From the NCBI GenBank assembly GCA_018819925.1, contig JAHJPG010000069.1, positions 1-63,611 on the forward strand: a DNA stretch of 63,611 bases, read 5' to 3'. The notes beneath the pieces are model-generated. The model ran no database searches, was not told where the DNA came from, and saw nothing but the letters and a program-made list of their open reading frames with translations. Numbering within the stretch: the stretch's first letter is position 1; every line of letters starts with the position of its first letter. The DNA is from Pseudomonadota bacterium. GTDB lineage: Bacteria; Desulfobacterota; Desulfarculia; Desulfarculales; Desulfarculaceae. A program made the position numbers and the translations under genes. Positions 1,402-20,293 of the stretch are shown piece by piece.

Positions 1402-1477
1402 ATCATGGCTAGCGTGGACATGTGCATTTCTCCAGACAACCTCGCACCACTATCAGCGGCAATGAACAGTGAAGACC

Positions 1478-1509
1478 TTGACGAGGCGAATGGAAACATG
1501 CTAGGCATG
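1478..1509 (+). promoter_or_regulatory. candidate promoter with palindromic operator
   Basis: A -35-like TTGACG (1478-1483) is followed about 18 bases later by a weak -10 region that overlaps the perfect inverted repeat CATGC-TAG-GCATG (1497-1509). The site lies 35 bases before the GntR start, so autoregulation is plausible. The -10 match is poor; the palindrome is the firmer observation. Confidence 0.3.
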
Positions 1510-1543
1510 ACATGTAAGATGTAACATATCAGATTGGGCGCAA

Positions 1544-2224
1544 ATGAACTCCCCCGAAAGCCAAACTCTTTCTGCGATAAAGACACCCCCATCCCTACGG
1601 GAGATGGCTTTCGAAGCCATCAAGGAAGGGATCATGGGCAACACCCTCAAGGCTGGGCACACCTATAGCGAGCATGTGCTGGCCAGACAATTGGGCATGT
1701 CCAAGACCCCTGTTCACGAAGCCCTGCTGGACTTGGCCAACAGGGGCTTTGTCATCTTGATCCCGCGCAAGGGCGTTAGCATACGCGCCTTGACCATTGA
1801 TGAAATAAAAGACCTCTATGAATTCCGCCTGGTTCTAGAGGTCGCGGTCATGCGTAGAATCGCCAACCACATCATCCCCGGGCAGATTGAACGCCTTTGG
1901 AAAATCCACAATGCCTGTGTGGCAGCCACCGAGTCTGACGACCACGTGGGCTATATCAAAAACGACCGCGAATATCATTCCTTCATGGCTTCATTGACCG
2001 GCAACGCCTATTTGGTAGGGGCGCTGGAAAACGTTCGCGATCTTATCGACTGGATGGGCGTTCGGGCCATGACCCGGCCCGGCCGCTTACCAGAGGTGGA
2101 CCTGGAGCACGCCGAGGTCATTGAAAAATTGGCCCAAGGCGATCCGGAGAAGGCTGCCGTGGCCATGGAAAAACATGTGCGAGCCACTGAACACAATTCG
2201 CTTGCTTGGCATGATCGCCAATAA
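1544..2224 (+). CDS. GntR family transcriptional regulator, FCD domain
   Basis: A 226-residue one-component repressor of the FadR/FCD branch. Residues about 15-80 form the winged helix (LGMSKTPVHEALLDLANRGF is the recognition region) and about 90-215 the all-helical FCD effector domain, with histidines expected to bind a metal near the ligand (EYHSF, HAEVIE, EKHV). It opens a same-strand cluster of hydrolase, ABC transporter, aminotransferase and 5-oxoprolinase genes and stops six bases before the next start, so it probably controls that operon in response to an imported acid or its product. No good Shine-Dalgarno precedes the chosen ATG. The family call is firm; the ligand is unknown. Confidence 0.9.
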   Translation: MNSPESQTLSAIKTPPSLREMAFEAIKEGIMGNTLKAGHTYSEHVLARQLGMSKTPVHEALLDLANRGFVILIPRKGVSIRALTIDEIKDLYEFRLVLEVAVMRRIANHIIPGQIERLWKIHNACVAATESDDHVGYIKNDREYHSFMASLTGNAYLVGALENVRDLIDWMGVRAMTRPGRLPEVDLEHAEVIEKLAQGDPEKAAVAMEKHVRATEHNSLAWHDRQ

Positions 2225-2230
2225 GATGGA

Positions 2231-3037
2231 GTGCTCACCTTGAACCAGCATGAGTTGGCAACCTTGGTAAAGAGCGCCAAGGTATACGACTTGGGCATGG
2301 ATTATTTTGTGGGCATGCCTCACTTTCCAACTCATCCACCCTTCACATTCTCTTTGGGCCGGGTTCACGGCGACCTTCCATATGAGGGGGGATTGGCTTC
2401 TGCCAATTGCGTTTTCTCAACCGGTGGACACACAGGGACTCATATTGACGCTCTAGGACATATAAGCATCGATGGGAAAGTCTTCGGAGTAGGAGACATT
2501 ACTCCCTGGCAGGATTATGAGGGGCTGAAAAAGGGTGGGATCGAGGAAGTGGCGCCGATCTTTTGTCCTGGCGTTCTGTTGGATATCGCCGGGGCGGAAG
2601 GAGTGGAATGCCTGGACAGCAGCTACGGTATAGGGGCGGAGGCCCTGCAATACGCCTGCGACCAAAACGGCCTGGAAGTGGGACGGGGCGACGCCGTCCT
2701 TATCCGGACCGGATGGATACAACACTACAGCGACCCTCATAAGTACATATCGCATGTCAAAGGCTCCCCCGGCCTTACGGAGGATGGCGCCCGCTGGCTT
2801 GTGGAGCGTGGCGCGGCCTATGTGGGTGGCGACACGGTTGCCTTGGAAAAGACGCCTTCGGCGGGATTGCCGGTGCATGGCATCCTGTTGGCCCAAAACG
2901 GCATACACATCATGGAAGTGCTTAATCTTGAAGAATTGGCCGCCCAAGGGGCAGACAGTTTTTTGTTCGTTGCGTTACCCCTGAAGATCAGGGGAGGGAC
3001 CGGATCGCCTATCCGCCCGGTTGCGGTGGTTTTGTGA
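2231..3037 (+). CDS. cyclase family protein (kynurenine formamidase/isatin hydrolase-like metal hydrolase)
   Basis: The protein belongs to the cyclase/KynB family of metal-dependent amidohydrolases. The diagnostic metal motif HTGTHIDA is present near residue 77, with a downstream conserved GDT near residue 198. Members hydrolyse N-formyl or cyclic amides such as formylkynurenine or isatin. A GTG at 2231 opens the frame, but GGAG at 2228-2231 lies 8 bases before an in-frame TTG at 2240, so the real start may be that TTG (265 residues). The gene follows the GntR regulator closely and precedes an amino-acid-type ABC transporter, which together with the downstream PxpABC genes suggests amide or lactam catabolism. 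The exact substrate cannot be read from sequence. Confidence 0.85.
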   Translation: MLTLNQHELATLVKSAKVYDLGMDYFVGMPHFPTHPPFTFSLGRVHGDLPYEGGLASANCVFSTGGHTGTHIDALGHISIDGKVFGVGDITPWQDYEGLKKGGIEEVAPIFCPGVLLDIAGAEGVECLDSSYGIGAEALQYACDQNGLEVGRGDAVLIRTGWIQHYSDPHKYISHVKGSPGLTEDGARWLVERGAAYVGGDTVALEKTPSAGLPVHGILLAQNGIHIMEVLNLEELAAQGADSFLFVALPLKIRGGTGSPIRPVAVVL

Positions 3038-3196
3038 CCATAGCGGCTTCTCGTCAAGGGAGGCCGGATACGCCTCATTTATGGTGACAAAAAAGTGCAC
3101 GTGGCTGGTTGGTGGCAATAAATGGAAATTAAGCTAGTTGCATGGACGAATTGCCGAATTTTGAGCCAATAAATCCAAGGACAAGGAGGTCTTGCA

Positions 3197-4408
3197 ATGC
3201 GGATTTCATTAAAATCCATTGGGATGACGGTAAAGCTGCTAGCCATAGTGGCTTTGTCCGCCGGATTGATAATGTCTCCAGCCATGACCGGAGGCGTACA
3301 GGCCGAGGTCAAGAAACTCAAGATTCTGTCAAACAATCCTTTCTCTGGTAAAGCCGCATCGTGGGGATTTTCCCAGGATCGCGGGGTGGGCTTGGCCGTG
3401 GACAAGGTCAACCAAGCCGGCGGCATCAAGATCAACGGCGAAACCTACATGTGGGAAAAGATCCAATGTGACAACCGCTACATCCCCGCAGACGCGGTCT
3501 CATGCCTCAAGCGCGGCGTGGCTCAGGGAGCCAAGTTCATGTGCACCCTGGGGGGGGCGGTCACAAAACCCCAAATTCCTCTCATCAACAAAGACAAGAT
3601 AGTCACCATAGCGGCCATCGCTGGTGGAGCCGACTTTACCAACGCCAACAATAAATACCTGTTCCGCACCATGCCTTCGGCCGACCTGACCATTGCCATA
3701 GAGGGCATCAAAATCTACAAGAAACTTGGGGTCAAGAAACTCGTGCTGCTCACGGCCGACAACGTGTTGGGCCATAGCGACGCCAAAACCCTGAAAAATG
3801 CGCTCAAGGTCAACAAGATGAGCGACATTTTGGTGGCCGAGGAGTTCGTGCCCATCGATACCGGCGACTTCACCCCTGTTCTGACCCGCGTTCTCGCCAA
3901 GAACCCGGACCACATCGAGGGCGGCGCATGGCCCGCGGCCGGCCTGGCTTTGCTGATCAAACAGGCCCGTGAGCTGGGCTACAAAGGCACTTTCACAAAC
4001 CTCTCTGGCGCCCCCAAAGTTGGTCCCCTGGTCAAGATCGGCGGCAAGAAAAATGTGGAAGGCGTGATCATGCTGCGCCTTTGGCCGCCGGACCAACTGC
4101 CCACCCAAGCCTTCAAGGACTACTGGGCAGAGTACCGCAAGCTTTATAAGCAGGATCCCGGCGCCAACAGCTGGGAGAGCTACATGGCCTTCATGCATCT
4201 TTCCGCCGCGGTCGAAAAAGCCCAGAGCCTTGATCCCGATAAGATTGTAGCGGTGATGCGGGACCTGAAGATCGTCAGCCTCTTGGGCGAGTTGCAACTC
4301 ATCGGCAAGGACAACCCATTGCTGCCGGGCTACGGCATCAATAACCAGTACACCTCGCCCTTGCCGGTAACGGTGCTCAAGGACGGAAATCCGATTATCT
4401 ATAAATAA
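3197..4408 (+). CDS. ABC transporter periplasmic substrate-binding protein, LivK type
   Basis: A 403-residue type I periplasmic binding protein (Peripla_BP_6 family). A signal peptide occupies residues 1-36 and ends in VQA. The mature part carries the usual two-lobe pattern with KKLKILSNNPFSG at its start. AAGGAGG at 3183-3189 sits 7 bases before the ATG. It should capture a small solute in the periplasm and hand it to the permeases encoded immediately downstream. The sequence resembles the divergent LivK paralogues of anaerobes used for aromatic or organic acids as much as amino acids, so the ligand is open; the neighbouring amidase-type and 5-oxoprolinase-type genes favour an amide or lactam. 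Confidence 0.9.
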   Translation: MRISLKSIGMTVKLLAIVALSAGLIMSPAMTGGVQAEVKKLKILSNNPFSGKAASWGFSQDRGVGLAVDKVNQAGGIKINGETYMWEKIQCDNRYIPADAVSCLKRGVAQGAKFMCTLGGAVTKPQIPLINKDKIVTIAAIAGGADFTNANNKYLFRTMPSADLTIAIEGIKIYKKLGVKKLVLLTADNVLGHSDAKTLKNALKVNKMSDILVAEEFVPIDTGDFTPVLTRVLAKNPDHIEGGAWPAAGLALLIKQARELGYKGTFTNLSGAPKVGPLVKIGGKKNVEGVIMLRLWPPDQLPTQAFKDYWAEYRKLYKQDPGANSWESYMAFMHLSAAVEKAQSLDPDKIVAVMRDLKIVSLLGELQLIGKDNPLLPGYGINNQYTSPLPVTVLKDGNPIIYK

Positions 4409-4444
4409 TAGCAGCTTAACGTGGACCGCCTCTGTTAAACCCCC

Positions 4445-4482
4445 GCCGGCCGGCACCAGTTAAAGACGTGGTGCCGGCCGGC
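4445..4482 (+). terminator. strong hairpin after livK-type gene (attenuator or mRNA-stabilising)
   Basis: A perfect 14-base inverted repeat (4445-4458 with 4469-4482, core GCCGGCCGGCACCA) encloses a 10-base loop. It is followed by a pyrimidine-rich stretch with short T runs. It lies 36 bases after the binding-protein stop and just before the permease gene, the usual place for a structure that keeps binding-protein mRNA in excess over permease mRNA. Confidence 0.65.
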
Positions 4483-4490
4483 CCCTTCCT

Positions 4491-5384
4491 TTGATTTTGA
4501 GTGGAAACGGTAATACGCCTGTGACGACACAGATGTTCATGCAGATGGCAGTGACCGGCTTGGTGCTTGGGTCCATCTATATGTTGGTGGCTTCAGGTCT
4601 GACCCTGATCTACGGAATCATGCACCAGGTGAACATGGCCCACGGCGTATTCTTTATGCTGGGAGCCATGGCTACCTATTATGCCACCGAGGTAATAGGT
4701 CTCCCATATTTCGTGGCTCTATTTGCCGTGGTGCTGGTTTTTCCAATAATCGGCGCCGCTTTTGAGCGCGGCATATTCCGCAACATTAGGCACATATGGC
4801 TGGCCGGCTACATGGCGACTGTCGGTGTATGGATGCTCATGGAGGGCCTTGGCTGGCAGGTGTTCGGCACGGAGCAGAAAGCCGTCTCCTTTCCCATTAC
4901 CGGCCTGATCAGACTACCCGGCGGCGCGGTGCTACCCGCGAACAAGCTATGGGTGGGCCTGATCGCCATAGCCATAATGGCCGGGGTCTACTATCTGGTG
5001 GGCCGCACCGCCTTGGGTAGGCAACTAAGGGCCGTGGAGCAGAATCCACGGGCCGCCGAGCTAATGGGCATCAATGCCGACCGGGCCATGGCCAAGGGAT
5101 TTGCTCTAGGGGTCACCCTGGCCGCCCTGGCTGGCGGCTTGGTGAGCACCTTGTATTCGGTGGACCCCTCCTGTGGCTCCACCCCCATGCTCAAGGCATT
5201 CATCATCATTATTTTGGGCGGACTGGGCAACGTAACCGGGTCGGTCATAGCCGCTTATATCTTGGGCTTCATCGATTCATTCGGGGGCAGCTTGCTGGGG
5301 TATCAGGCCGGGCATTTCATGGGCTTCGGGCTAGTAATCCTAATTTTGATCTTCAAACCTTCCGGGATTATGGGCGATGAATAG
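4491..5384 (+). CDS. branched-chain amino acid-type ABC permease, LivH family
   Basis: A polytopic inner-membrane protein of up to 297 residues with about eight hydrophobic segments and the family's N-terminal signature (GLTLIYGIMHQVNMAHG). It forms half of the translocation channel with the LivM-type protein encoded next. The frame opens with TTG at 4491, directly behind the hairpin; in-frame GTG at 4521 (after GGAAACGG) or ATG at 4533 are credible alternatives. Its 3' end overlaps the next gene by 8 bases, showing translational coupling. Confidence 0.88.
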   Translation: MILSGNGNTPVTTQMFMQMAVTGLVLGSIYMLVASGLTLIYGIMHQVNMAHGVFFMLGAMATYYATEVIGLPYFVALFAVVLVFPIIGAAFERGIFRNIRHIWLAGYMATVGVWMLMEGLGWQVFGTEQKAVSFPITGLIRLPGGAVLPANKLWVGLIAIAIMAGVYYLVGRTALGRQLRAVEQNPRAAELMGINADRAMAKGFALGVTLAALAGGLVSTLYSVDPSCGSTPMLKAFIIIILGGLGNVTGSVIAAYILGFIDSFGGSLLGYQAGHFMGFGLVILILIFKPSGIMGDE

Positions 5385-6372
5385 CAGACTGGCCCCATAT
5401 TTGACGGCTCTGGCGGTTATGGCGGCCCTGGCCTTGGTCCCGCCGCTGATCAAGTTCATCGCTCCGGACAAATGGGAGCTTACCGCCCACATTGGCATCA
5501 AGATTCTTCTTAATGTGGGCTTCGGGCTATGCCTTTGGATGATGCTACAGGCCGGCGAATTGAGCCTTGGCCAGGGTGGCTTTATCACCATCGGGGCCTA
5601 CACCACCGGCATCCTCGTGGCCAAGTACAATCTAATAAGCGTGGTTTGGCTGGGCTACTTGGCCGGAGCTTTGGCTGCCGCGGTGATCGCATTGATGTTG
5701 GGTTATCTTATCGTGCACCTCAAGCGTATCTTCTTTTTGCTGGTGACTTGGTCCTTCGCCGAGATGTTGCACCCGGTGCTCACATCCTTCGAACATCCTT
5801 TTGGCGGAGCGATGGGCATTATCGACATCCCCGCCCCAGAAGGCCTTACTCTGTTTAGCGAGAGTTGGACTGGGTACTACTACCTGGCCCTGATTTATGG
5901 TTTCGCGGTGCTGTGGATTGTCTGGCGCATAGCAGGCTCCAAGGTTGGGCTAATAACCAAGTCCATTGGCCAAAACGACACCCTGGTCACCTTTTGCGGA
6001 CTTTACGTACGCAAATATAAGGTAATGATCTTTGTCCTGGGCTGCTTTATCACCGGCATCGGCGGCGGCATTCTGGCCAGTTACCTTACGGCCATTTCCC
6101 CCGAGACTTTCACCTTCTTCACCTCGCTGGATATCATCATGTTCAATCTCATCGGAGGCATGGGCACCATGGCAGGCCCCATCGTGGGAGCGGTCATTCT
6201 TTCGGGGTTAAATGAGTATCTGTTCGCCGCCGGCTATTGGCGCATGGTGGTCTATGGATTGATCATCATCTTCTTCATTACCTTGCTGCCCGGGGGCATG
6301 GTCTCCTTGCCGGCAGCCCTCCGCAAGCGATTCACTCGCAAAACTAAAAAGCAGGAGGTGGGTCTTGGCTGA
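5377..6372 (+). CDS. branched-chain amino acid-type ABC permease, LivM family
   Basis: A 331-residue inner-membrane permease with about nine to ten hydrophobic helices and the LivM signature near residue 65 (AGELSLGQGGFITIGAYTTG). It pairs with the LivH-type subunit. The ATG lies inside the end of the previous gene and the stop overlaps the following ATPase start by 8 bases. An internal positive loop (VWRIAGSKVGLI) lies where the EAA-like ATPase contact is expected. Substrate specificity is set by the binding protein, so no solute is assigned. Confidence 0.88.
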   Translation: MNSRLAPYLTALAVMAALALVPPLIKFIAPDKWELTAHIGIKILLNVGFGLCLWMMLQAGELSLGQGGFITIGAYTTGILVAKYNLISVVWLGYLAGALAAAVIALMLGYLIVHLKRIFFLLVTWSFAEMLHPVLTSFEHPFGGAMGIIDIPAPEGLTLFSESWTGYYYLALIYGFAVLWIVWRIAGSKVGLITKSIGQNDTLVTFCGLYVRKYKVMIFVLGCFITGIGGGILASYLTAISPETFTFFTSLDIIMFNLIGGMGTMAGPIVGAVILSGLNEYLFAAGYWRMVVYGLIIIFFITLLPGGMVSLPAALRKRFTRKTKKQEVGLG

Positions 6373-7129
6373 CCGGAGCATCCTGCGAGTAGAAAATGTC
6401 AGCAAGAACTTTGGCGGCCTGGTGGCCTTGTCCGAAGTCAGCTTCCATATTGAAAAGGGAGATTTCTTCGGACTCATCGGGCCTAACGGCGCCGGCAAGT
6501 CGGTTATGGTCAATGTGATAAGTGGTCTGTATAGCCCCAACAAAGGGCGTGTGGAGTTTGACGGCCGCCAAATAACCGGACTTCGCCCGGACCGAATCAT
6601 CAGAGAGGGCCTGAGCCGCACTTTCCAGCACTCCACATTGTTTTTCGATTTGAGCGTTCGCGAAAACATAATGATGGGGGTGCGCGCCATGGCCGACATG
6701 GGGCTGGCCGAGGCCATCCTGGGGTCCTCCAGCGCCCGAAGCAAGGACAAGGCAATCGAAGATCGCTCCCAGGAGGTGATCGACCTGCTGGGGCTGGAAC
6801 AACAGGCCGAAGAGGTGGCCGCCAACCTGCCATACGGCCTGCAGAAAATAGTGGCCATCGGCATCGCCATCGCCCCCAAACCTAAGCTTCTTATACTGGA
6901 CGAGCCCCTCACTGGCCTGGTCGCGGCGGAGGTGGACCAAGTAATGGGCCACATCGCTTCTTTGAACCAGCAAGGAATGACCATCTTCATCATTGAGCAC
7001 AACATGCGGGCGGTGATGAATTTTTGCAGCCGCATTGTGGTCCTTAGCTTCGGCAACAAGATCGCCGAGGGGGCGCCCGGCGAAATTCAACGGAACCGCG
7101 AAGTGATCAAGTCCTATCTGGGGGAGTGA
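6365..7129 (+). CDS. ABC transporter ATP-binding protein, LivG family
   Basis: A 254-residue cytoplasmic ATPase. Walker A is GPNGAGKS (about residues 39-46), the signature region is NLPYGLQK, which is typical of LivG rather than LSGGQ, Walker B is LLILDEP, and the switch histidine is in IIEHNM. The start is TTG at 6365, preceded by AGGAGGTGGG at 6353-6362. It overlaps the permease before it and the LivF-type gene after it. With LivF it forms the heterodimeric motor of the importer. The D-loop reads LTGL instead of the common AAGL. Confidence 0.9.
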   Translation: MADRSILRVENVSKNFGGLVALSEVSFHIEKGDFFGLIGPNGAGKSVMVNVISGLYSPNKGRVEFDGRQITGLRPDRIIREGLSRTFQHSTLFFDLSVRENIMMGVRAMADMGLAEAILGSSSARSKDKAIEDRSQEVIDLLGLEQQAEEVAANLPYGLQKIVAIGIAIAPKPKLLILDEPLTGLVAAEVDQVMGHIASLNQQGMTIFIIEHNMRAVMNFCSRIVVLSFGNKIAEGAPGEIQRNREVIKSYLGE

Positions 7130-7848
7130 GATTGTCCTTGCTGGAGATTAAACAAGTGGTGGCGGGCTACGGTCCGGCAGTGGCCTTGCATGGTGTCAGC
7201 CTTTCTCTGGAGCAGGGCGAACGTGTTTCTCTGCTAGGCGCCAACGGAGCCGGTAAAAGCTCTATAGTCAACGTCGTCAGCGGCTTGCTACCGGTGCGCT
7301 CCGGAGAGGTTTGGTTTCAGGGTGAGCGCATTGACGGATGGGCCGCCCACCGTATCGTGGGCCTGGGTATAAGCCAGGTGCCCGAGGGGCGGCTGGTCTT
7401 TCCCAAAATGACCGTTTGGGAGAACCTGGAGTTGGGGGCGACCTCCCTGAAGGACACGGTGCAAAAGAGTCAGCTGTTGGAACAGGTGTTCGAGCTGTTT
7501 CCACGGCTGGCGGAGCGGCACAAGCAAATGGCAGGCACCATGAGCGGCGGCGAACAGCAAATGCTGGCCGTGGGACGCTCCCTGATGTCGCGGCCCAAGC
7601 TGATTCTCTCCGATGAAATATCAATGGGGCTGGCCCCGTTGGTGGTGCGCGACATATACGACACTTTGCTGCGTATCAACCAAGAATGGGGTGTAACCCT
7701 TTTGATGGTGGAGCAGGAGGCCAAACTGGCCTTGGAGGTGGCCGATTCCTGTCATCTGCTGGAATCCGGGCGTATCGTGGCCTCGGGCCCGGCTGATGAA
7801 ATGGCAAAGAGCGAGTTGGTGCGCAAGGTTTACCTGGCAGAGGACTAG
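7126..7848 (+). CDS. ABC transporter ATP-binding protein, LivF family
   Basis: A 240-residue ATPase with Walker A GANGAGKS (about residues 37-44), signature MSGGEQQ, Walker B LILSDE and the switch histidine position occupied by Glu in LMVEQEA, as is usual for LivF. GTG at 7126 overlaps the LivG stop by 4 bases. It completes a five-gene importer (binding protein, two permeases, two ATPases). In Walker B the usual LLLLDEPS reads LILSDEIS, a common LivF variation. Confidence 0.9.
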   Translation: MRLSLLEIKQVVAGYGPAVALHGVSLSLEQGERVSLLGANGAGKSSIVNVVSGLLPVRSGEVWFQGERIDGWAAHRIVGLGISQVPEGRLVFPKMTVWENLELGATSLKDTVQKSQLLEQVFELFPRLAERHKQMAGTMSGGEQQMLAVGRSLMSRPKLILSDEISMGLAPLVVRDIYDTLLRINQEWGVTLLMVEQEAKLALEVADSCHLLESGRIVASGPADEMAKSELVRKVYLAED

Positions 7849-7902
7849 AATGGTCCTGTCCTCGCCCTATTTGAATAGCCCATTTCTGCGAGAGGGTATG
7901 TG

Positions 7903-9231
7903 ATGCCTGGCAGAAAAAGTTCGGTGTTTTCCCGCCGCCTAGACCCGCCGCTACCCATGGCGGTGGCAGGCGATGGAGTGTGGATTGTCGACGCCGGCGG
8001 CAAGCGTTACTTGGATGCTTCGGGAGGGGCCGTGGTCGTAAACCTCGGCCATGGGCGAAAGGAAATCGCCCAGGCCGTGGGTGAGCAACTCGGCAAACTT
8101 TATTATGCTCATCCCACGATGTTTACTTGCCAGGCAGCCGAGGACTTGGCTGCGGCATTGGCCGTCCACACACCCGGCGACCTAAATCGGTTTTATTTCA
8201 TGACCTCGGGTTCGGAAGCCAACGAGACGGCCATAAAGCTGGCTCGCCAGATACACCAGGCCCAGGGCAGGCCCGAAAAGACGATCTTGATATCCCGTTG
8301 GCGCTCTTACCACGGCCTTACCCTGGGTGCCTTGGCCGCGGCTGGGCGTCCGGCATTTCGCGTTCCCTACATGTCCATGCTGCGCGATGCGGTGCATATA
8401 CCACCGCCCTATTGCCTGCGTTGCTCCTACGGACTCAAGCAGCCTGAATGTGGTTTGCGCTGCGCCTTGGCCCTGGATGAAACCATCCAGAACTTGGGCG
8501 CGCAGGTGGTGTCAGCCTTCATAATAGAGCCGGTTAGCGGCGCCACCCTGGCCAGCTACCCCCCTCCAGAGGGTTACCTGGCCCTGGTGCGGGATATTTG
8601 CCGCCACCATGGAGTGCTCTTGATATTCGATGAGGTAATGACCGGCATGGGCCGCACCGGGGCTTGGTTCGCCGGAGGCCGTTACGGAGTTACCCCGGAT
8701 ATGATGACCATGGGCAAGGGCCTAACTGGCGGCAGCCTGGCCCTGTCGGCCGTGGCGGTAAGAGAACCTCTGTATCAAGCGGTAAAAAGCGGACTTGGCG
8801 CCTTCAGTCATGGCGGCACCTACAGTCACCATCCGGTGGGCTGTGCCGCCGGTTTGGCTGCGGTGCGAATCCTTGAGAATGAGGCCCTTGTCGAGCGAGC
8901 CGAGCGGATGGGGCAATTTCTGGGCAGCAAACTCCATGAGCACCTGGCCGATTCTCCCTTTGTGGGTGATGTGCGCGGCGTGGGCATGCTCTGGGGGGTG
9001 GAGTTTGTGGCGAACAAGAAAACTTTGGCTCCCTTCCCCAGATCTGAGAAGGTCACTGAACGCTTGTGGCAGCATTTGTTTGATGAAGGCATCATCGTTT
9101 ACAAAGCAGTAGGTTTGGCCGGCACCGATGGAGACGCCCTTGTAGTCTCTCCGCCTTTTATAATTGAAGAGGAACAAGTTGTGCAGGTGGCCGAAGCGAT
9201 CAAAAAAGCCATCGTCGAGGTGCTGGGATAA
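7903..9231 (+). CDS. class III (omega-amino acid type) PLP-dependent aminotransferase
   Basis: A 442-residue fold-type I aminotransferase. The Schiff-base lysine lies in MTMGKGLTGG, the cofactor aspartate in LLIFDEVMTG, and the GSEANETAIKLAR segment is the phosphate-binding region. A cysteine-rich insert (CLRCSYGLKQPECGLRC, about residues 165-185) is typical of one subgroup of this family. It should move the amino group of an omega-amino acid or amine onto pyruvate or 2-oxoglutarate. ATG at 7903 has GAGAGGG 6 bases upstream; the adjacent GTG at 7900 is possible. It sits between the transporter and PxpBCA, consistent with processing the amino acid released by lactam hydrolysis. Confidence 0.88.
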   Translation: MPGRKSSVFSRRLDPPLPMAVAGDGVWIVDAGGKRYLDASGGAVVVNLGHGRKEIAQAVGEQLGKLYYAHPTMFTCQAAEDLAAALAVHTPGDLNRFYFMTSGSEANETAIKLARQIHQAQGRPEKTILISRWRSYHGLTLGALAAAGRPAFRVPYMSMLRDAVHIPPPYCLRCSYGLKQPECGLRCALALDETIQNLGAQVVSAFIIEPVSGATLASYPPPEGYLALVRDICRHHGVLLIFDEVMTGMGRTGAWFAGGRYGVTPDMMTMGKGLTGGSLALSAVAVREPLYQAVKSGLGAFSHGGTYSHHPVGCAAGLAAVRILENEALVERAERMGQFLGSKLHEHLADSPFVGDVRGVGMLWGVEFVANKKTLAPFPRSEKVTERLWQHLFDEGIIVYKAVGLAGTDGDALVVSPPFIIEEEQVVQVAEAIKKAIVEVLG

Positions 9232-9241
9232 TTTTTAAGCG

Positions 9242-9979
9242 ATGATCTACCCGAAGCCGCTTGTAAAGCCATCCGGCGACAGAGCCCTGCGCATCACATT
9301 TGGCGATGAACGCAGCCTCAGGGTAAACCGGCCCGTGCGGGCCTTGAGCCGCCTTATTGCTTCCGAAGCCCTGCCGGGCCTCCTGGAGATGGTGCCCACC
9401 TACGCCTCACTGACAGTGCTTTATGACCCCGATGCCATTGACTATGACGCGCTGGCCGGACGCTTGGAGGATTTGGCACGGCAAGCCAGCGAACAGGAAA
9501 CAATCGAAGCCAGCCCTAGGCTCTTGACCATTCCAGTTTGCTATGAGGGTGATTACGCCCCGGACATGGATTACATCTGCGACTACACCGGCCTTGACCG
9601 AAATCAAGTGGTGGGCCTGCACACCGCGGAAGCGTATTTTGTTTTTCAATTGGGATTTACTCCGGGCTGTCCTTTTATCGGTCCATTGCAGGAGCAACTG
9701 CACGTACCCCTGATGCAGTCGCCGCGGACGCGCACCCCCAAGGGCGCGGTCGCTATCAGTGTGGGGCAGACAGTGATTTATCCGCGGGCCACCCCTGGAG
9801 GCATGCGCATCGTGGGGCGCACCCCGGTCCAACTGTTTCAGCTTGAGCACCCCGACCTGACCTTATTCAAGCCTGGGGATCGCGTAAGGTTTAGAGCCGT
9901 GAGTGTTCAGGAATATAAGGCTATAGAGGCGCGGGCATCAGCCCTGTATGACGGTGTGGAGTCTCTGTCCCATGGTTGA
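9242..9979 (+). CDS. pxpB: 5-oxoprolinase subunit PxpB (KipI/allophanate hydrolase subunit 1 family)
   Basis: A 245-residue cyclophilin-like protein of the PxpB/KipI family. The C-terminal half shows the family's LGFTPGCPFIG, SPRTRTPKGAVAI and YPRATPGGMRIVGRTP motifs. With PxpC and PxpA it should form the bacterial ATP-dependent 5-oxoprolinase that opens 5-oxoproline to glutamate; homologues of these subunits also open larger lactams. It starts 10 bases after the aminotransferase stop and overlaps pxpC by 8 bases. Confidence 0.9.
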   Translation: MIYPKPLVKPSGDRALRITFGDERSLRVNRPVRALSRLIASEALPGLLEMVPTYASLTVLYDPDAIDYDALAGRLEDLARQASEQETIEASPRLLTIPVCYEGDYAPDMDYICDYTGLDRNQVVGLHTAEAYFVFQLGFTPGCPFIGPLQEQLHVPLMQSPRTRTPKGAVAISVGQTVIYPRATPGGMRIVGRTPVQLFQLEHPDLTLFKPGDRVRFRAVSVQEYKAIEARASALYDGVESLSHG

Positions 9980-10949
9980 AGGCCTCTCAATCCCTTACAT
10001 CAAAGTATTGCGCCCCGGCGCACAGAGCTCTTTGCAGGATTTGGGACGCCTCGGATATCAGAGCCTCGGTATCGCCGAGGCTGGGGCCATGGATCGCTAC
10101 TCGCTGGTGCAGGCAAATCGCCTATTGAACAACCATGACAATTCGGCGGCCTTGGAGATTACCCTGGTTGGCCCCAAGCTACGCTTTGAGCGAACGGGCA
10201 CCTTTTCTCTGACCGGGGCCGACCTCTCCGCCCAACTGGACGGCCACCCTTTGGCGCCTGGTAGGGTATATAGAACCGAGCCCGGTCAAGTGCTGAGTTT
10301 TGGACCGAGGATCAACGGCATGCGAGCCTACTTGGCGGTGCCCGGCGGATTCGATGCTCCCTTGGTCCTGGGTAGCCGTTCCACTTACGTTTATGCAGGC
10401 TTCGGTGGTCTTGAGGGCCGCGCGCTCACGAAGGGCGATGTGCTCTCTTGTCTGGTCGAGCCAGAGGTTGGCCAAGAACTCACGTCTCTGCCAGAAAGCT
10501 TTTTGCTCCCCCCTGACGGTCCTCGAGTATTGCGGGTAATCATTGGCCCGCACGAGGACCGCTTTACCAAAGAAGGTATCGAGACTTTTTTTGGGTCGTC
10601 GTTCGAGGTAACGAGTGAATCCAATCGCATGGGCTATCGGCTGGAAGGACCTCGCATTGGACACACCGACGGCCCCATAGTGGTTAGCGAGGCTACTCCG
10701 CTGGGCGCGGTGCAGGTGCCAGGCCAAGGCCAGCCGGTGCTACTGCTCAGAGAGCGCGGAACTACCGGTGGCTATACCAAGATCGCCTGTATTATCACCG
10801 CCGATATCGACCAAGTGGGCCAAGCCACTCCTGGCAGTCGGATCAGCTTCCGGCTGGTGGGACTCAAACAAGCGCATCACGCGGAAAGGGAGCGCTGGCA
10901 GTCTTTGGATTCCTGGCGGCCACGAATCGAAAAGAAGGGTGTGAAATGA
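9972..10949 (+). CDS. pxpC: 5-oxoprolinase subunit PxpC (KipA/biotin-dependent carboxyltransferase family)
   Basis: A 325-residue protein with the AHS2/KipA signature: KVLRPGAQSSLQDLGRLGYQ at the N terminus, GAMDRYSLVQANRLL, and near the C terminus RERGTTGGYTKIA. The ATG at 9972 overlaps the pxpB stop (ATGGTTGA) and fits the family N terminus better than an ATG 24 bases upstream. The stop overlaps the pxpA start. It partners PxpB in the ATP-dependent activation of the lactam. The order B-C-A is the common gene order. Confidence 0.9.
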   Translation: MVEGLSIPYIKVLRPGAQSSLQDLGRLGYQSLGIAEAGAMDRYSLVQANRLLNNHDNSAALEITLVGPKLRFERTGTFSLTGADLSAQLDGHPLAPGRVYRTEPGQVLSFGPRINGMRAYLAVPGGFDAPLVLGSRSTYVYAGFGGLEGRALTKGDVLSCLVEPEVGQELTSLPESFLLPPDGPRVLRVIIGPHEDRFTKEGIETFFGSSFEVTSESNRMGYRLEGPRIGHTDGPIVVSEATPLGAVQVPGQGQPVLLLRERGTTGGYTKIACIITADIDQVGQATPGSRISFRLVGLKQAHHAERERWQSLDSWRPRIEKKGVK

Positions 10950-11725
10950 GCGTGATTGATCTGAACTGCGATCTGGGTGAAAGCTTCGGTCCTTACAGTA
11001 TGGGTTATGACCGTGAGGTGATGGAACATATCACCTCCGCCAACATAGCCTGTGGTTGGCACGCCGGAGACCCCATGGTCATGGATTGTACCGTTGAAAT
11101 GGCCAGTGAACGGGGGGTTAGTGTAGGCGCTCACCCCGGGTACCCGGACATGCTCGGCTTTGGCCGCCGCCACATGGATTGCTCACCTGATGAACTAAAA
11201 AATTACGTAATTTACCAAGTTGGTGCACTTGATGCCTTCTGTCGGATACACGGCGTAACGCTCAACCACGTCAAACCCCACGGTAAGCTTTATTTGGATT
11301 GCCTGGATCGCCAACATCAGGCCCGGGCTATCGCTGAGGCTGTATATTCCTACAACCCACGTCTCATATATGTAGCCTTTGCAGGCGCCCGAGGTGAGGT
11401 GATGCGTAAAGTGGCCAGTGAGGTGGGGCTCAAAGTGGCGTTTGAGGCTTTTCCTGATCGTGCCTACACTCCCGAGGGGCTGCTAGTGCCTCGTGGGGTG
11501 CCTGGCGCTGTGGTCACTGACCCATCAAAGGTGGCTGAGATTTCTTTAAGAGTGGCGACTGAACAAAAGATGATAGCCTCCGATGGCACTGTTATAGATT
11601 TGGAAGCTCAGACGCTATGCGTACATGGTGATACTCCTACCGCTCTGGAATTGGTGCAATCGATACGCAACGCATTGGTCGCCAATGGGGTGGATGTGGC
11701 GCCCATGTCCAGTTTTTTGGACTAA
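10946..11725 (+). CDS. pxpA: 5-oxoprolinase subunit PxpA (LamB/YcsF family)
   Basis: A 259-residue TIM-barrel-like protein of the LamB/YcsF family. The N terminus shows the diagnostic DLNCDLGESFG, followed by NIACGWHAGDP, VGAHPGYPD, and later HVKPHGKLY. ATGA overlaps the pxpC stop. It is the last gene of the cluster that begins with the GntR regulator; the next DNA is a decayed thiM. With an aminotransferase and a solute importer in the same operon, a lactam broader than 5-oxoproline is plausible but unproven. Confidence 0.92.
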   Translation: MSVIDLNCDLGESFGPYSMGYDREVMEHITSANIACGWHAGDPMVMDCTVEMASERGVSVGAHPGYPDMLGFGRRHMDCSPDELKNYVIYQVGALDAFCRIHGVTLNHVKPHGKLYLDCLDRQHQARAIAEAVYSYNPRLIYVAFAGARGEVMRKVASEVGLKVAFEAFPDRAYTPEGLLVPRGVPGAVVTDPSKVAEISLRVATEQKMIASDGTVIDLEAQTLCVHGDTPTALELVQSIRNALVANGVDVAPMSSFLD

Positions 11726-11862: not shown

Positions 11863-12546
11863 ATGGAGGCTTTGGCCCAAAAAGCGGCGGAGTGCCTGGT
11901 CAGGATCCGCGAGAAGCAATCGCTGGTCCACAACATCACCAATTTTGTGGTCATTAACTCCACGGCTAACGCTCTGCTGGCCTGCGGCGCTTCTCCGGTG
12001 ATGGCCCACGCCAGGTAAGAGGTGGAGCAGATGGTCTCATTCGCCGGGGCACTGGTGCTCAACATGGGCACCCTGACACCGCCATGGATCGAGTCCATGC
12101 TGCTGGCCGCCAAAAAAGCACGTGCCCTGGGGGTGCCAGCGGTTCTGGAGCCGGTGAGCTCCAGCGCCACCGAGCTTTGCACCCGCTCCAGCCGCCGCAT
12201 CATCGATGAGGCCGGGGCGAGAGTGGTGCGCGGCAACGCCTCCGAGGTGCTCTCGCTGACCGACAACGCCAGCCGGACCAAGGGTGTGGATTCGGCCCAC
12301 AGCGTTGATGAGGCCTCCCAGGCCGGGCGCGACCTGGCCCTGGCCACCGCCGTCATCGGCGCGTTTTTGGCCGTGGAGCCCGATCCCCTGGAGGCCACTG
12401 CGGCGGCCCTGGCCTACGTGGGCCTAGCCGGTGAGAGAGCCGCGGCCGTCTCCAGCGGCCCCGGCAGCCTCCAGGTAAATCTGCTGGACGCCATGTACAA
12501 TATTTCTCCCGCCGATCTGGCCCAGGGGGCCAATATCCGCGCCTAG
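11863..12546 (+). pseudogene. thiM: decayed hydroxyethylthiazole kinase (thiM)
   Basis: The frame from ATG 11863 starts with ThiM-like sequence ([21 protein letters not shown], then SPVMAHA) but meets TAA at 12016-12018 in place of an expected Glu codon. The same frame continues with clear ThiM sequence (LVLNMGTLTPPWIESM, VVRGNASEVLSL, KGVDSAHS). Near 12334-12345, at a tandem CTGGCC, roughly 45 residues appear to be missing: the VAVTGAVD...TGTGC segment that carries the catalytic Gly-Thr-Gly-Cys motif. The C terminus (VIGAFLAVEPDPLEA, SSGPGSLQVNLLDAMYN) is intact. A nonsense codon plus loss of the catalytic motif means it cannot make active kinase. The 137 bases before it (11726-11862) hold nothing recognisable. 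Confidence 0.85.
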
Positions 12547-12548
12547 CC

Positions 12549-12782
12549 TGGTGGCTGCTTACCGGCAAGACGGTGTGGACCAAGGGCGAGGAGCCCATGC
12601 GGTTCCTCTTTGAGAACGAAACCGGCCTGATGGAGACCACCTTTTTCCCGGCGGCCTATCGCCGCTTCGCCGTGATGCTGGACTGGGAGCGGCCCTATCT
12701 CCTGGAGGGCAGGGTGGAGGAGAACTTCGGGGCGGTGACGCTGAATGTGGAGCGGGCTAGAAGGGTGGGTGAGTTTAAATAG
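12549..12782 (+). pseudogene. C-terminal fragment of DNA polymerase III alpha subunit (dnaE-like)
   Basis: Immediately after the thiM remnant a 77-residue open stretch reads WWLLTGKTVWTKGEEPMRFL, then ETGLMETTFFPAAYRRFAVML and RPYLLEGRVEENFGAVTLNV. This matches the OB-fold near the C terminus of DnaE-type polymerases, normally over 1,000 residues long. No start codon with a ribosome site is present and the rest of the gene is absent. It is most simply the tail of a deleted or partially transferred polymerase gene. The family identification is from remembered motif similarity only. Confidence 0.7.
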
Positions 12783-18452: not shown

Positions 18453-18851
18453 TCACTCCCCTTCGGCCATGAGCAGGCGGTAGGCCGCGGCGTCCATGAG
18501 GTTTTCCAACTCGGCCCGGTCAAAATCCCCCAGCTTGACCAGCCAGCCCGCGCCGTAGCAGTCCTGGTTGATAAGCTCGGGCGCGTCCCCCAGGGCGGAG
18601 TTCACCTCCACCACCACCCCGCTGAGAGGCGCGTAGACGTCCGCCGCCGTCTTTACCGATTCCACCACGCACATCTCGCCCATCTGCTCCACCTCGGACT
18701 CCGGCTCGGGCAGCTCCACGTAGGTGATGTCGCCCAATTGATCCTGGGCGAAATCGGTAAGCCCCACCACGGCCAGGTCTCCCTCCACCCGCAGCCACTC
18801 GTGTTCCTTGGTATAGTAAAGACCCTCGGGCGCCTTCTTGACTTCGCTCAC
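18453..18851 (-). CDS. gcvH: glycine cleavage system H protein
   Basis: A 132-residue lipoyl carrier. The lipoylated lysine lies in the classic ESVKTAADVYAP segment (about residue 66), and the N-terminal YYTKEHEWLRVEGD is diagnostic. It shuttles the aminomethyl group from the P protein to GcvT. ATG overlaps the gcvT stop by 4 bases, so the two are translationally coupled. No lipoate ligase or dihydrolipoyl dehydrogenase gene is nearby. Confidence 0.97.
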   Translation of the reverse strand: MSEVKKAPEGLYYTKEHEWLRVEGDLAVVGLTDFAQDQLGDITYVELPEPESEVEQMGEMCVVESVKTAADVYAPLSGVVVEVNSALGDAPELINQDCYGAGWLVKLGDFDRAELENLMDAAAYRLLMAEGE

Positions 18852-20041
18852 TTCTCACCTCCATCGAACTCAATCGGTTCAAGATACCGGCCCGCCGGCC
18901 GGGTAAAGGCCTTCACCACCCTGCCGGGCAGGGTGCGCTTGCGGTAGATGATCTCAACTTCCCGCCCCACCAGGGTTCCGCTGTCCAGCAGGGCCAGGCC
19001 CAGGGGGCGAACATAGTGCTCCCCGCCGGGCCGGCCTCCCTCGAAGCGCCAGGCCGGGATGGTGGTGGCGCTGGTCAACTCGCCCAATGGCTCGCCGCCG
19101 GCCAGCACCTCGGAGCCCTCGCGCATCATGCCCTTGGCCAGGGCGGCCACCGCGAAGACCCGCTGGGGCAGCTCATCAAACTCGCCCGAGGCCAGAGCCC
19201 GGGCCTGGGCCTCAAGGGCCCGGCGGCCCATGAACTCACCGCGCTCGGGGTTCAGGTCCACCCCCAAACGGGCGGTGGGCACGGCCATCACCGGGCGGTC
19301 GGCCTGATATTCGTGGCCGTACAGGGGCAGGCAGGCCTCCAGGCGCAGGGTGTCCCTAGCGCCCAGGCCCACCGGCATCACCCCCAGGGGCGCGCCGGCC
19401 TGGGCCAGCTTCTCCCACACCGCCTCGGCGCGGTCCCACGGCGGGAACAACTCGAAGCTCAGGGGCTCGCCGGTGTAGCCGGTGCGCGAGAGGTACATCT
19501 CCACCCCGCCCAGGCGGTTGAAGCCGCCGTGGTTGCGCCCCGGCGGGGGCAAGGGCTCGGCCAACAGCGAAGCCAAGAGTTGCTCGCTGTCCGGCCCCTG
19601 CACCGCCAGCATGGCCAGGCGCGCACTGTGGTCCTCGAACTCCACGCCGCCGCTCAGGTGCTCTTGCAGCCACTGAAGATCCCTGGCCCGGTTGGCCGCG
19701 TTGACCACCAGCAAATACTGCCCGGACTTTTGTTGGTAGAGGTAGGCGTCGTCCAGGGGCCGGCCCGCCGGATCGGAGATGAGGGTGTACTGGGCCTTGC
19801 CGGGGGTCAGCTTGCGGGGGTCGTTGGTGAGCAGGGCGGACAGCCAGGGCAGGGCCTGGGGGCCGCGCACCGCAAAGCGGCCCATGTGGGATATGTCGAA
19901 CAGGCCGCCATGCTTGCGGGTGGCCAGGTGTTCGGCGATCTGCCCTGCCTGGTAGGATACCGGCAGCCACCATCCGGCGAAATCCACCAGTTTGCCACCG
20001 GCGCGGGCGTGCCAGTCATACAACGGGGTCTTGGCTGTCAT
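18848..20041 (-). CDS. gcvT: glycine cleavage system aminomethyltransferase
   Basis: A 397-residue T protein that transfers the one-carbon unit to tetrahydrofolate and releases ammonia. The N terminus TPLYDWHARAGGKLVDFAGW, then GLFDISHMGRF and later RTGYTGEPLSFELFP are characteristic. The start at 20041 has GGAG 8 bases upstream; the frame remains open further upstream but runs through the riboswitch. It is the first gene of the gcv operon. Confidence 0.96.
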   Translation of the reverse strand: MTAKTPLYDWHARAGGKLVDFAGWWLPVSYQAGQIAEHLATRKHGGLFDISHMGRFAVRGPQALPWLSALLTNDPRKLTPGKAQYTLISDPAGRPLDDAYLYQQKSGQYLLVVNAANRARDLQWLQEHLSGGVEFEDHSARLAMLAVQGPDSEQLLASLLAEPLPPPGRNHGGFNRLGGVEMYLSRTGYTGEPLSFELFPPWDRAEAVWEKLAQAGAPLGVMPVGLGARDTLRLEACLPLYGHEYQADRPVMAVPTARLGVDLNPERGEFMGRRALEAQARALASGEFDELPQRVFAVAALAKGMMREGSEVLAGGEPLGELTSATTIPAWRFEGGRPGGEHYVRPLGLALLDSGTLVGREVEIIYRKRTLPGRVVKAFTRPAGRYLEPIEFDGGEK

Positions 20042-20090
20042 GAAGGAGGCTCCTCTCTGGCCGAACCTGGGGTTGGGCCGCTTAGAGATT

Positions 20091-20282
20091 CCTCCTGTCG
20101 GTGGGCCTGAGAGATTCACCCGCTCGGGGCTTGCTCCTTCGGCGGCCGGAGCCTCCGGCACTTTCCAGGAGTGTCAGGTGTTCAGCGGTCCTTTTGCCTG
20201 AGAGTTTCGGCCCCATGGCTGGCCTTGCACCTTCGGCGGCCGCTGGCCAACAATGGCCCGGCGGCGCTCTCCCGCTGATCAT
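20091..20282 (-). promoter_or_regulatory. tandem glycine riboswitch
   Basis: Read on the minus strand, the leader contains two glycine aptamers in series. Aptamer 1 (about 20278-20183) has GCGGGAGAGC, GCCGCCGAAGGTGCAA and CTCTCAGGCAAAAGGACCGC. Aptamer 2 (about 20174-20091) has GCCGCCGAAGGAGCAAGCC and TCTCAGGCCCACCGACAGG. These are the hallmark conserved segments of the class. Glycine binding would switch on expression of the gcv operon. The 3' edge can pair with sequence near the gcvT ribosome site (GGAGG/CCTCC, TCTCT/AGAGA, GGCC/GGCC), suggesting translational control. Confidence 0.95.
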
Positions 20283-20293
20283 CGATGTTCAGC

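Follow-up and report, generated by a model that had tools for sequence, protein, structure and literature searches.

We describe an eleven-gene operon from an anaerobic bacterium that joins a LIV-type ABC importer and a class III aminotransferase to the three subunits of PxpABC, and in which the PxpB subunit departs from its family at several near-invariant positions. On the basis of its gene content, its conservation, a promoter footprint and the divergence of both PxpB and the binding-protein pocket, we tentatively read the operon as an inducible catabolic unit (importer, lactamase and transaminase) for a small, neutral cyclic amide other than 5-oxoproline, a reading that falls somewhat short of an even chance of being correct. 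More speculatively, the altered PxpB core (TPGC...VPLM...QTVIYP...PGGM) may mark a distinct PxpABC subfamily of ATP-dependent lactamases that act on rings without a carboxylate, 2-pyrrolidone for example. The subfamily would then be a bacterial counterpart of fungal lamA/lamB which, in anaerobes, is paired with an omega-transaminase of its own, a proposal that we consider doubtful.

Wherever PxpABC occurs, it carries the annotation 5-oxoprolinase, and many of these annotations would need a finer reading if the marked subfamily opens other lactams. If the proposal is true, PxpB alone could predict which bacteria degrade other lactams, and the operon would provide a simple ATP-dependent lactamase along with a lactam-specific regulator and binding protein that are usable as sensors.

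Gene content and conservation of the operon

The window, by which we mean the whole stretch of DNA that was analysed (63,611 nucleotides), is one entire contig (G000:C65) from a genome of 4.03 Mb. Positions 1544 to 11725 hold eleven intact, tightly spaced and co-directional ORFs that constitute one operon, in the order gntR, the gene for a PF04199 hydrolase (cyc), the LIV-type importer genes, the class III aminotransferase gene and pxpB-pxpC-pxpA (Table 1). Each of the operon subunits scanned passes its Pfam cut-off, and every part of a LIV-type ABC importer is represented (a PF13458 binding protein, two permeases and two ATPases), which bears out the claim of a first-pass annotation that the operon has its own importer. 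All of the genes listed in that annotation are present, intact and co-directional, with coordinates that are right within the uncertainty of the start codons. It had also credited the operon with its own regulator, and the GntR/FCD gene is indeed part of the unit, lying just outside the interval then considered. The start codon of cyc is probably the TTG at 2240, located behind a GGAG sequence, instead of the GTG at 2231, since the relatives begin at the former position.

Table 1. Features of the operon and its upstream region.
Feature	Position	Strand	Basis
Probable promoter and operator	1475..1525	+	TTGAC(A/G)-N18-TAnnnn box and imperfect inverted repeat (GAGATnTnAtATCTgATATCTC in relatives); five-genome alignment
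GntR-family regulator with FCD domain	1544..2224	+	PF00392, PF07729; 80-83% identity to sister species
PF04199 cyclase-family metal hydrolase	2231..3037	+	PF04199, 99 bits; invariant HxGTHxDxxxH; start probably 2240
LIV-type periplasmic binding protein, signal peptide	3197..4408	+	PF13458 (Peripla_BP_6); 87-92% identity in sisters
GC-rich hairpin in the gap between binding-protein gene and livH	4445..4482	+	Same place in four genomes, sequence differing
LivH-type permease	4491..5384	+	PF02653 (BPD_transp_2)
LivM-type permease	5377..6372	+	PF02653 (BPD_transp_2)
LivG-type ATPase	6365..7129	+	PF00005 (ABC_tran), PF12399
LivF-type ATPase	7126..7848	+	PF00005 (ABC_tran); LivF/UrtE models
Class III aminotransferase, PRK07483-like, omega-transaminase type	7900..9231	+	PF00202 (Aminotran_3), 310.6 bits
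PxpB-like subunit, clade-specific substitutions	9242..9979	+	CT_C_D, TIGR00370
PxpC-like subunit	9948..10949	+	CT_A_B, TIGR00724
PxpA-like subunit (LamB/YcsF)	10946..11725	+	PF03746; NF003814, 340 bits (cut-off 226)

The identical eleven-gene order recurs in three other species of the same genus (G053, locus L039; G282, L074; G396, L108), with protein identities of ~70-94%, and thus the arrangement is not a chance one. A further genome (G321, L107) carries gntR, cyc and the binding-protein gene before the contig end cuts off the rest. Given that the genes flanking the operon vary among the three species and the window genome, the unit spans gntR to pxpA. Outside the phylum, a search of 398 and 299 genomes from two other phyla, run without a positive control, returned no match at E<=1e-130 to the operon with its aminotransferase, which is a weak negative. 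One scan of a genome contig collection found only distant matches to the aminotransferase, none of them adjoining pxp genes. Plasmid-borne matches to this enzyme reach at most 45% identity, and the three that were inspected reside in unrelated contexts, two of which have a beta-keto-acid cleavage enzyme (BKACE) alongside.

Upstream of gntR, the five-genome alignment reveals an invariant TTGAC and a conserved inverted repeat, arranged as TTGAC(A/G), 18 bases, a TA-rich box and then the imperfect repeat (GAGATnTnAtATCTgATATCTC in relatives). Of the five copies, that in the window matches this pattern least well. The pattern fits a single autoregulated promoter. A strong GC hairpin also lies between the binding-protein gene and livH in all four complete loci, where its sequence differs. 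Hairpins of this kind are common where a binding protein is produced in excess, and the example in the window probably sets a higher dose of this protein.

Several other elements surround the operon. A CRISPR array at 31-1401, which runs towards the contig start and ends ~75 bases before the operon promoter, comprises 23 repeats (GTGTTCCCCGCAGGGGCGGGGATGAACCG, with a single mismatch in one) and spacers of exactly 32 bases, and is type I-E-like. Downstream of pxpA, a thiM (hydroxyethylthiazole kinase) remnant at 11863-12546 is interrupted by an in-frame stop and, judging by its profile match, by an internal loss. This is followed at 12573-12782 by a short fragment that weakly matches a nucleic-acid-binding domain of the OB-fold type and may be the end of a DNA polymerase III alpha gene. 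An ordinary glycine riboswitch occupies 20176-20284 on the minus strand, directly upstream of apparent glycine cleavage genes on that strand (18848-20161 onwards).

Altered residues in PxpB and the binding-protein pocket

The operon encodes PxpA (PF03746), PxpB (PF02682) and PxpC (PF02626) together, as expected of a PxpABC 5-oxoprolinase, and both PxpA and PxpB pass the NCBI models for 5-oxoprolinase subunits. PxpC scores 245 bits against NF045499, whose cut-off of 500 looks narrow, judged on this one PxpC. The model matches of PxpA and PxpB weigh against the cyclic-amide reading and are consistent with plain 5-oxoproline utilisation, wherein the importer would take up 5-oxoproline, PxpABC would convert it to L-glutamate, and the aminotransferase and hydrolase would be accessory, either redistributing glutamate nitrogen or acting on a side substrate. 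This alternative also draws on the pxpTABC genes of Corynebacterium glutamicum, which form a 5-oxoproline operon under GntR control (PMC13274462), and on a locus (G058:C16) that pairs a PxpB of the same clade as ours with an adjoining gene of the D-glutamate-cyclase family. Nonetheless, we judge it to be rather improbable, as an omega-transaminase is not needed for glutamate, another PxpABC set of canonical appearance, complete with a LIV importer, is present in the genome, and both PxpB and the binding protein diverge in the manner described below.

The PxpB clade is made up of six loci (G000, G053, G282, G396, G058:C16 and G299:C16), which come from three bacterial families, and is set apart from 36 other PxpB proteins by substitutions at six near-invariant positions: A113C, R157L, A173S, G178V, W188M and P206L (window numbering). 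The clade has Leu at position 157, where the others have Arg (33), Lys (2) or His (1); Val at position 178, which is Gly in 28 of the 36; and Met at position 188, which is otherwise Trp (30), Phe (3), Tyr (2) or Val (1). The near-invariant core of PxpABC 5-oxoprolinase (Arg157, Gly178 and Trp188) is therefore absent from the clade. Change is concentrated in this subunit, given that PxpC and PxpA of the clade show one clade-specific position each. Both Arg and Trp are kept in Escherichia coli PxpB, Bacillus subtilis KipI and PH0987. We considered whether fused PxpBC proteins also lack the Arg, and this was ruled out by alignment, in which they retain it; the substitution is thus specific to the clade. 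We infer that the substituted residues may line the substrate pocket. The Arg cannot be assigned as the ligand for the carboxylate of 5-oxoproline, because family members of unknown function keep it too.

The binding protein diverges as well. At the amino-acid-binding positions Ser79, Thr102, Tyr202 and Glu226 of LivJ, of which the Glu binds the ammonium group, the operon protein has Gly, Gly, Ala and Ser/Thr, in an alignment of ~21% identity with a three-residue deletion nearby. The residues typical of LivJ/LivK-type amino-acid binding are thus missing, which is a weak negative at such low identity. With identity at only ~21%, the pattern suggests a ligand that lacks a free alpha-amino group and perhaps also a carboxylate.

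The window genome carries three PxpABC-type sets in all. One, on contig C103 (L047), resembles the operon in that PxpA and PxpBC are encoded together with a LIV importer, but differs in having PxpB fused to PxpC, an ordinary PxpB core and a partner gene for a DUF1445 D-glutamate cyclase, and in lacking the aminotransferase and the PF04199 hydrolase. Because of the DUF1445 gene, this set looks like an ordinary 5-oxoproline system. Its binding protein retains the Ser that is missing from the operon protein, although it likewise has no acid at the LivJ Glu position. The third set (L048, G000:C74, 4315-9966) has a PxpA-B-C that is strongly diverged, with genes for a biotin carrier, biotin carboxylase and FMN oxidoreductase next in line, and possibly participates in biotin-dependent carboxylation.

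Loci in other lineages link parts of the operon. G386 has a PxpA grouping with that of the operon (support 98), next to a LIV importer, BKACE and an aminotransferase of the operon's family, and in G299 the pxpB-pxpC-pxpA genes of the PxpB clade stand with BKACE and SDR genes. Thus, the aminotransferase and the PxpABC proteins of the clade have common partners elsewhere. The G299 locus (L128, G299:C16, 8524-17289) has two different pxpB-pxpC-pxpA sets adjacent to each other, with a class IV aminotransferase gene between them and an aldehyde:ferredoxin oxidoreductase (AOR) gene beyond. The G058 locus (L040, G058:C16, 3426-12733) has GntR, DUF1445 and LIV importer genes alongside a pxpB-pxpC pair from the divergent clade, and no pxpA is nearby.

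The aminotransferase, the hydrolase and a possible route

The nearest model to the operon aminotransferase is PRK07483, and its best solved relatives are omega-transaminases. The PLP Lys and catalytic Asp are kept and there is no Glu switch, as in enzymes of the omega-transaminase type. The positions of Arg141, Glu211 and Arg398 in E. coli GabT are Leu, Ala and Val, and therefore the enzyme is not GabT-type, which counts against the favoured cyclic-amide reading. Its relatives were surveyed at 22 loci (at least 45% identity, with an upper value of 64%) for neighbours within 7 kb, with examples checked by Pfam: an AOR family member occurs at 9 loci, BKACE at 7 and an AbfD-type protein at 3. One AbfD-type protein, beside an aminotransferase paralogue in G053, matches 4-hydroxybutyryl-CoA dehydratase 1u8v with E=9e-178, and the FeS cluster ligands (Cys, Cys, His, Cys) are complete in all three. 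These neighbourhoods would fit aldehydes or keto acids derived from gamma- or beta-amino acids. Our literature search yielded nothing useful on BKACE/aminotransferase pairs. Separately, loci L082, L076 and L091, where a class III aminotransferase adjoins an AbfD-type 4-hydroxybutyryl-CoA dehydratase and a thiolase, are candidate GABA-fermentation clusters in anaerobes of the phylum.

The BKACE neighbours suggest beta- over gamma-amino acids, a further point against that reading. They also raise an alternative in which a cyclic ureide or imide (of the dihydropyrimidine, hydantoin or glutarimide type) would be opened in two steps by the PF04199 enzyme and PxpABC, and the aminotransferase would act on the resulting beta-amino acid, for instance beta-alanine. 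BKACE, which is associated with beta-keto acids, adjoins both the aminotransferase and the PxpABC clade in other genomes, and PF04199 is weakly related to isatin hydrolase, a cyclic amidohydrolase. However, Pfam searches of the operon found no dihydropyrimidinase, ureidopropionase or HyuA/B genes, and the AbfD and AOR neighbours suit aldehydes from gamma-amino acids equally well, so we regard this possibility as unlikely.

The PF04199 protein has an invariant metal motif (HxGTHxDxxxH) with an invariant C-terminal His and Glu, and is weakly similar to the structures of isatin hydrolase and kynurenine formamidase. Paralogues in the genus, at 63-65% identity with one at 48%, reside in operons with CoA ligase/acyl-CoA dehydrogenase/SDR, Ldh_2/UxaA-like or TRAP/enolase-family genes, and with no nitrogen genes. 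The protein was consequently set aside as a lactam-specific marker and is best described, from its sequence relatives, as a putative general hydrolase; the earlier label of an amidase-type enzyme is not established, given these 63-65% identical paralogues. If the substrate is a plain lactam, the role of PF04199 is left unexplained. One scheme that would cover all of the enzyme types, including an amidase-like PF04199 activity, is import of a conjugate (an omega-amino acid or amine bound as its pyroglutamyl- or gamma-glutamyl-amide) that PF04199 splits, with the 5-oxoproline part going to PxpABC and the amine part to the aminotransferase. Such a ligand would agree with a binding-protein pocket that lacks the free-amino-acid signature. 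Yet the paralogues in operons without nitrogen genes speak against it, and the change in the PxpB core has no explanation if 5-oxoproline is the PxpB substrate, making this a quite remote prospect.

Reactions and substrate for the favoured reading, a cyclic amide other than 5-oxoproline, can be sketched from these features as follows. The GntR/FCD protein would repress its own promoter until the substrate or product releases repression, and the LIV-type importer would bring in the ring compound. PxpB-PxpC would then use ATP to activate the ring amide for hydrolysis by PxpA to an omega- or beta-amino acid, which the aminotransferase would convert to a semialdehyde or keto acid. The PF04199 hydrolase probably acts on a larger or imide-like precursor to set the ring free. 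The semialdehyde or keto acid could enter central metabolism via enzymes encoded elsewhere, namely AOR, or Fe-alcohol dehydrogenase with 4-hydroxybutyryl-CoA dehydratase, or BKACE. In the window genome, locus L119 groups AOR, an AMP-dependent ligase and an Fe-alcohol dehydrogenase within 20 kb of sequence that also encodes an AbfD-type dehydratase with its cluster ligands, and L120 has BKACE; the host might use a C4 omega-amino acid through these enzymes. The ring would be 2-pyrrolidone, yielding GABA, or a close lactam; conversion of 2-pyrrolidone to GABA is our best single guess, and one that is considerably more apt to be wrong than right.

We favour this reading because the genome has a second, canonical-looking PxpABC set, the PxpB core is altered, the binding protein lacks amino-acid-binding residues and there is a precedent in Aspergillus. 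It is favoured further because relatives of the aminotransferase adjoin AOR, BKACE and AbfD genes, and because G386 and G299 link parts of the operon.

Comparison with known systems

Characterized PxpABC systems (E. coli pxpBCA, B. subtilis ycsF-kipIA and C. glutamicum pxpTABC) have the same three subunits as the operon, whose B-C-A order is that of E. coli, and the C. glutamicum genes are accompanied by PxpR, a GntR-family regulator like that of the operon. The operon differs from these systems by R157L, W188M and the four other core changes in PxpB, by a LIV ABC importer where they use an APC-type permease, and by the addition of the aminotransferase and the PF04199 hydrolase.

The CapAB/OplAB enzymes of Pseudomonas resemble the proposed route in that ATP-dependent lactam opening is followed by a transaminase. 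However, these valero- and caprolactamases are of the hydantoinase/oxoprolinase (HyuA/HyuB) type and have no similarity to PxpABC (PMC8453981), and no operon protein has a Pfam match to the HyuA/HyuB domains. An analogy between the operon PxpABC and valerolactamase is thereby ruled out, and with it the premise of the first-pass annotation that 5-oxoprolinase homologues act on valerolactam. The lactam/imide route built on that premise survives in part: it is unusual for a PxpABC operon to include an aminotransferase of the omega type, and several lines of evidence lead away from 5-oxoproline, whereas the valerolactam premise and the amidase reading do not stand.

Our literature search produced nothing useful on a bacterial 2-pyrrolidone gene cluster; the precedent that we can cite is fungal. 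In Aspergillus nidulans, AmdR controls gatA and gabA, for omega-amino acids, together with lamA and lamB, for lactams (PMC8016842), and ycsF, the pxpA gene of B. subtilis, was first linked to lamB, a gene for the use of 2-pyrrolidinone (PMC3412718). From these two reports, a PxpA-family gene and a GABA transaminase are documented in one lactam regulon of a fungus. The Aspergillus system differs from the operon in its host and its regulator class, and the likeness is drawn from literature descriptions instead of sequences; but as in the operon, a PxpA-family gene (lamB) is tied to an omega-amino-acid transaminase (the GABA transaminase gatA), and there the purpose is the use of lactams.
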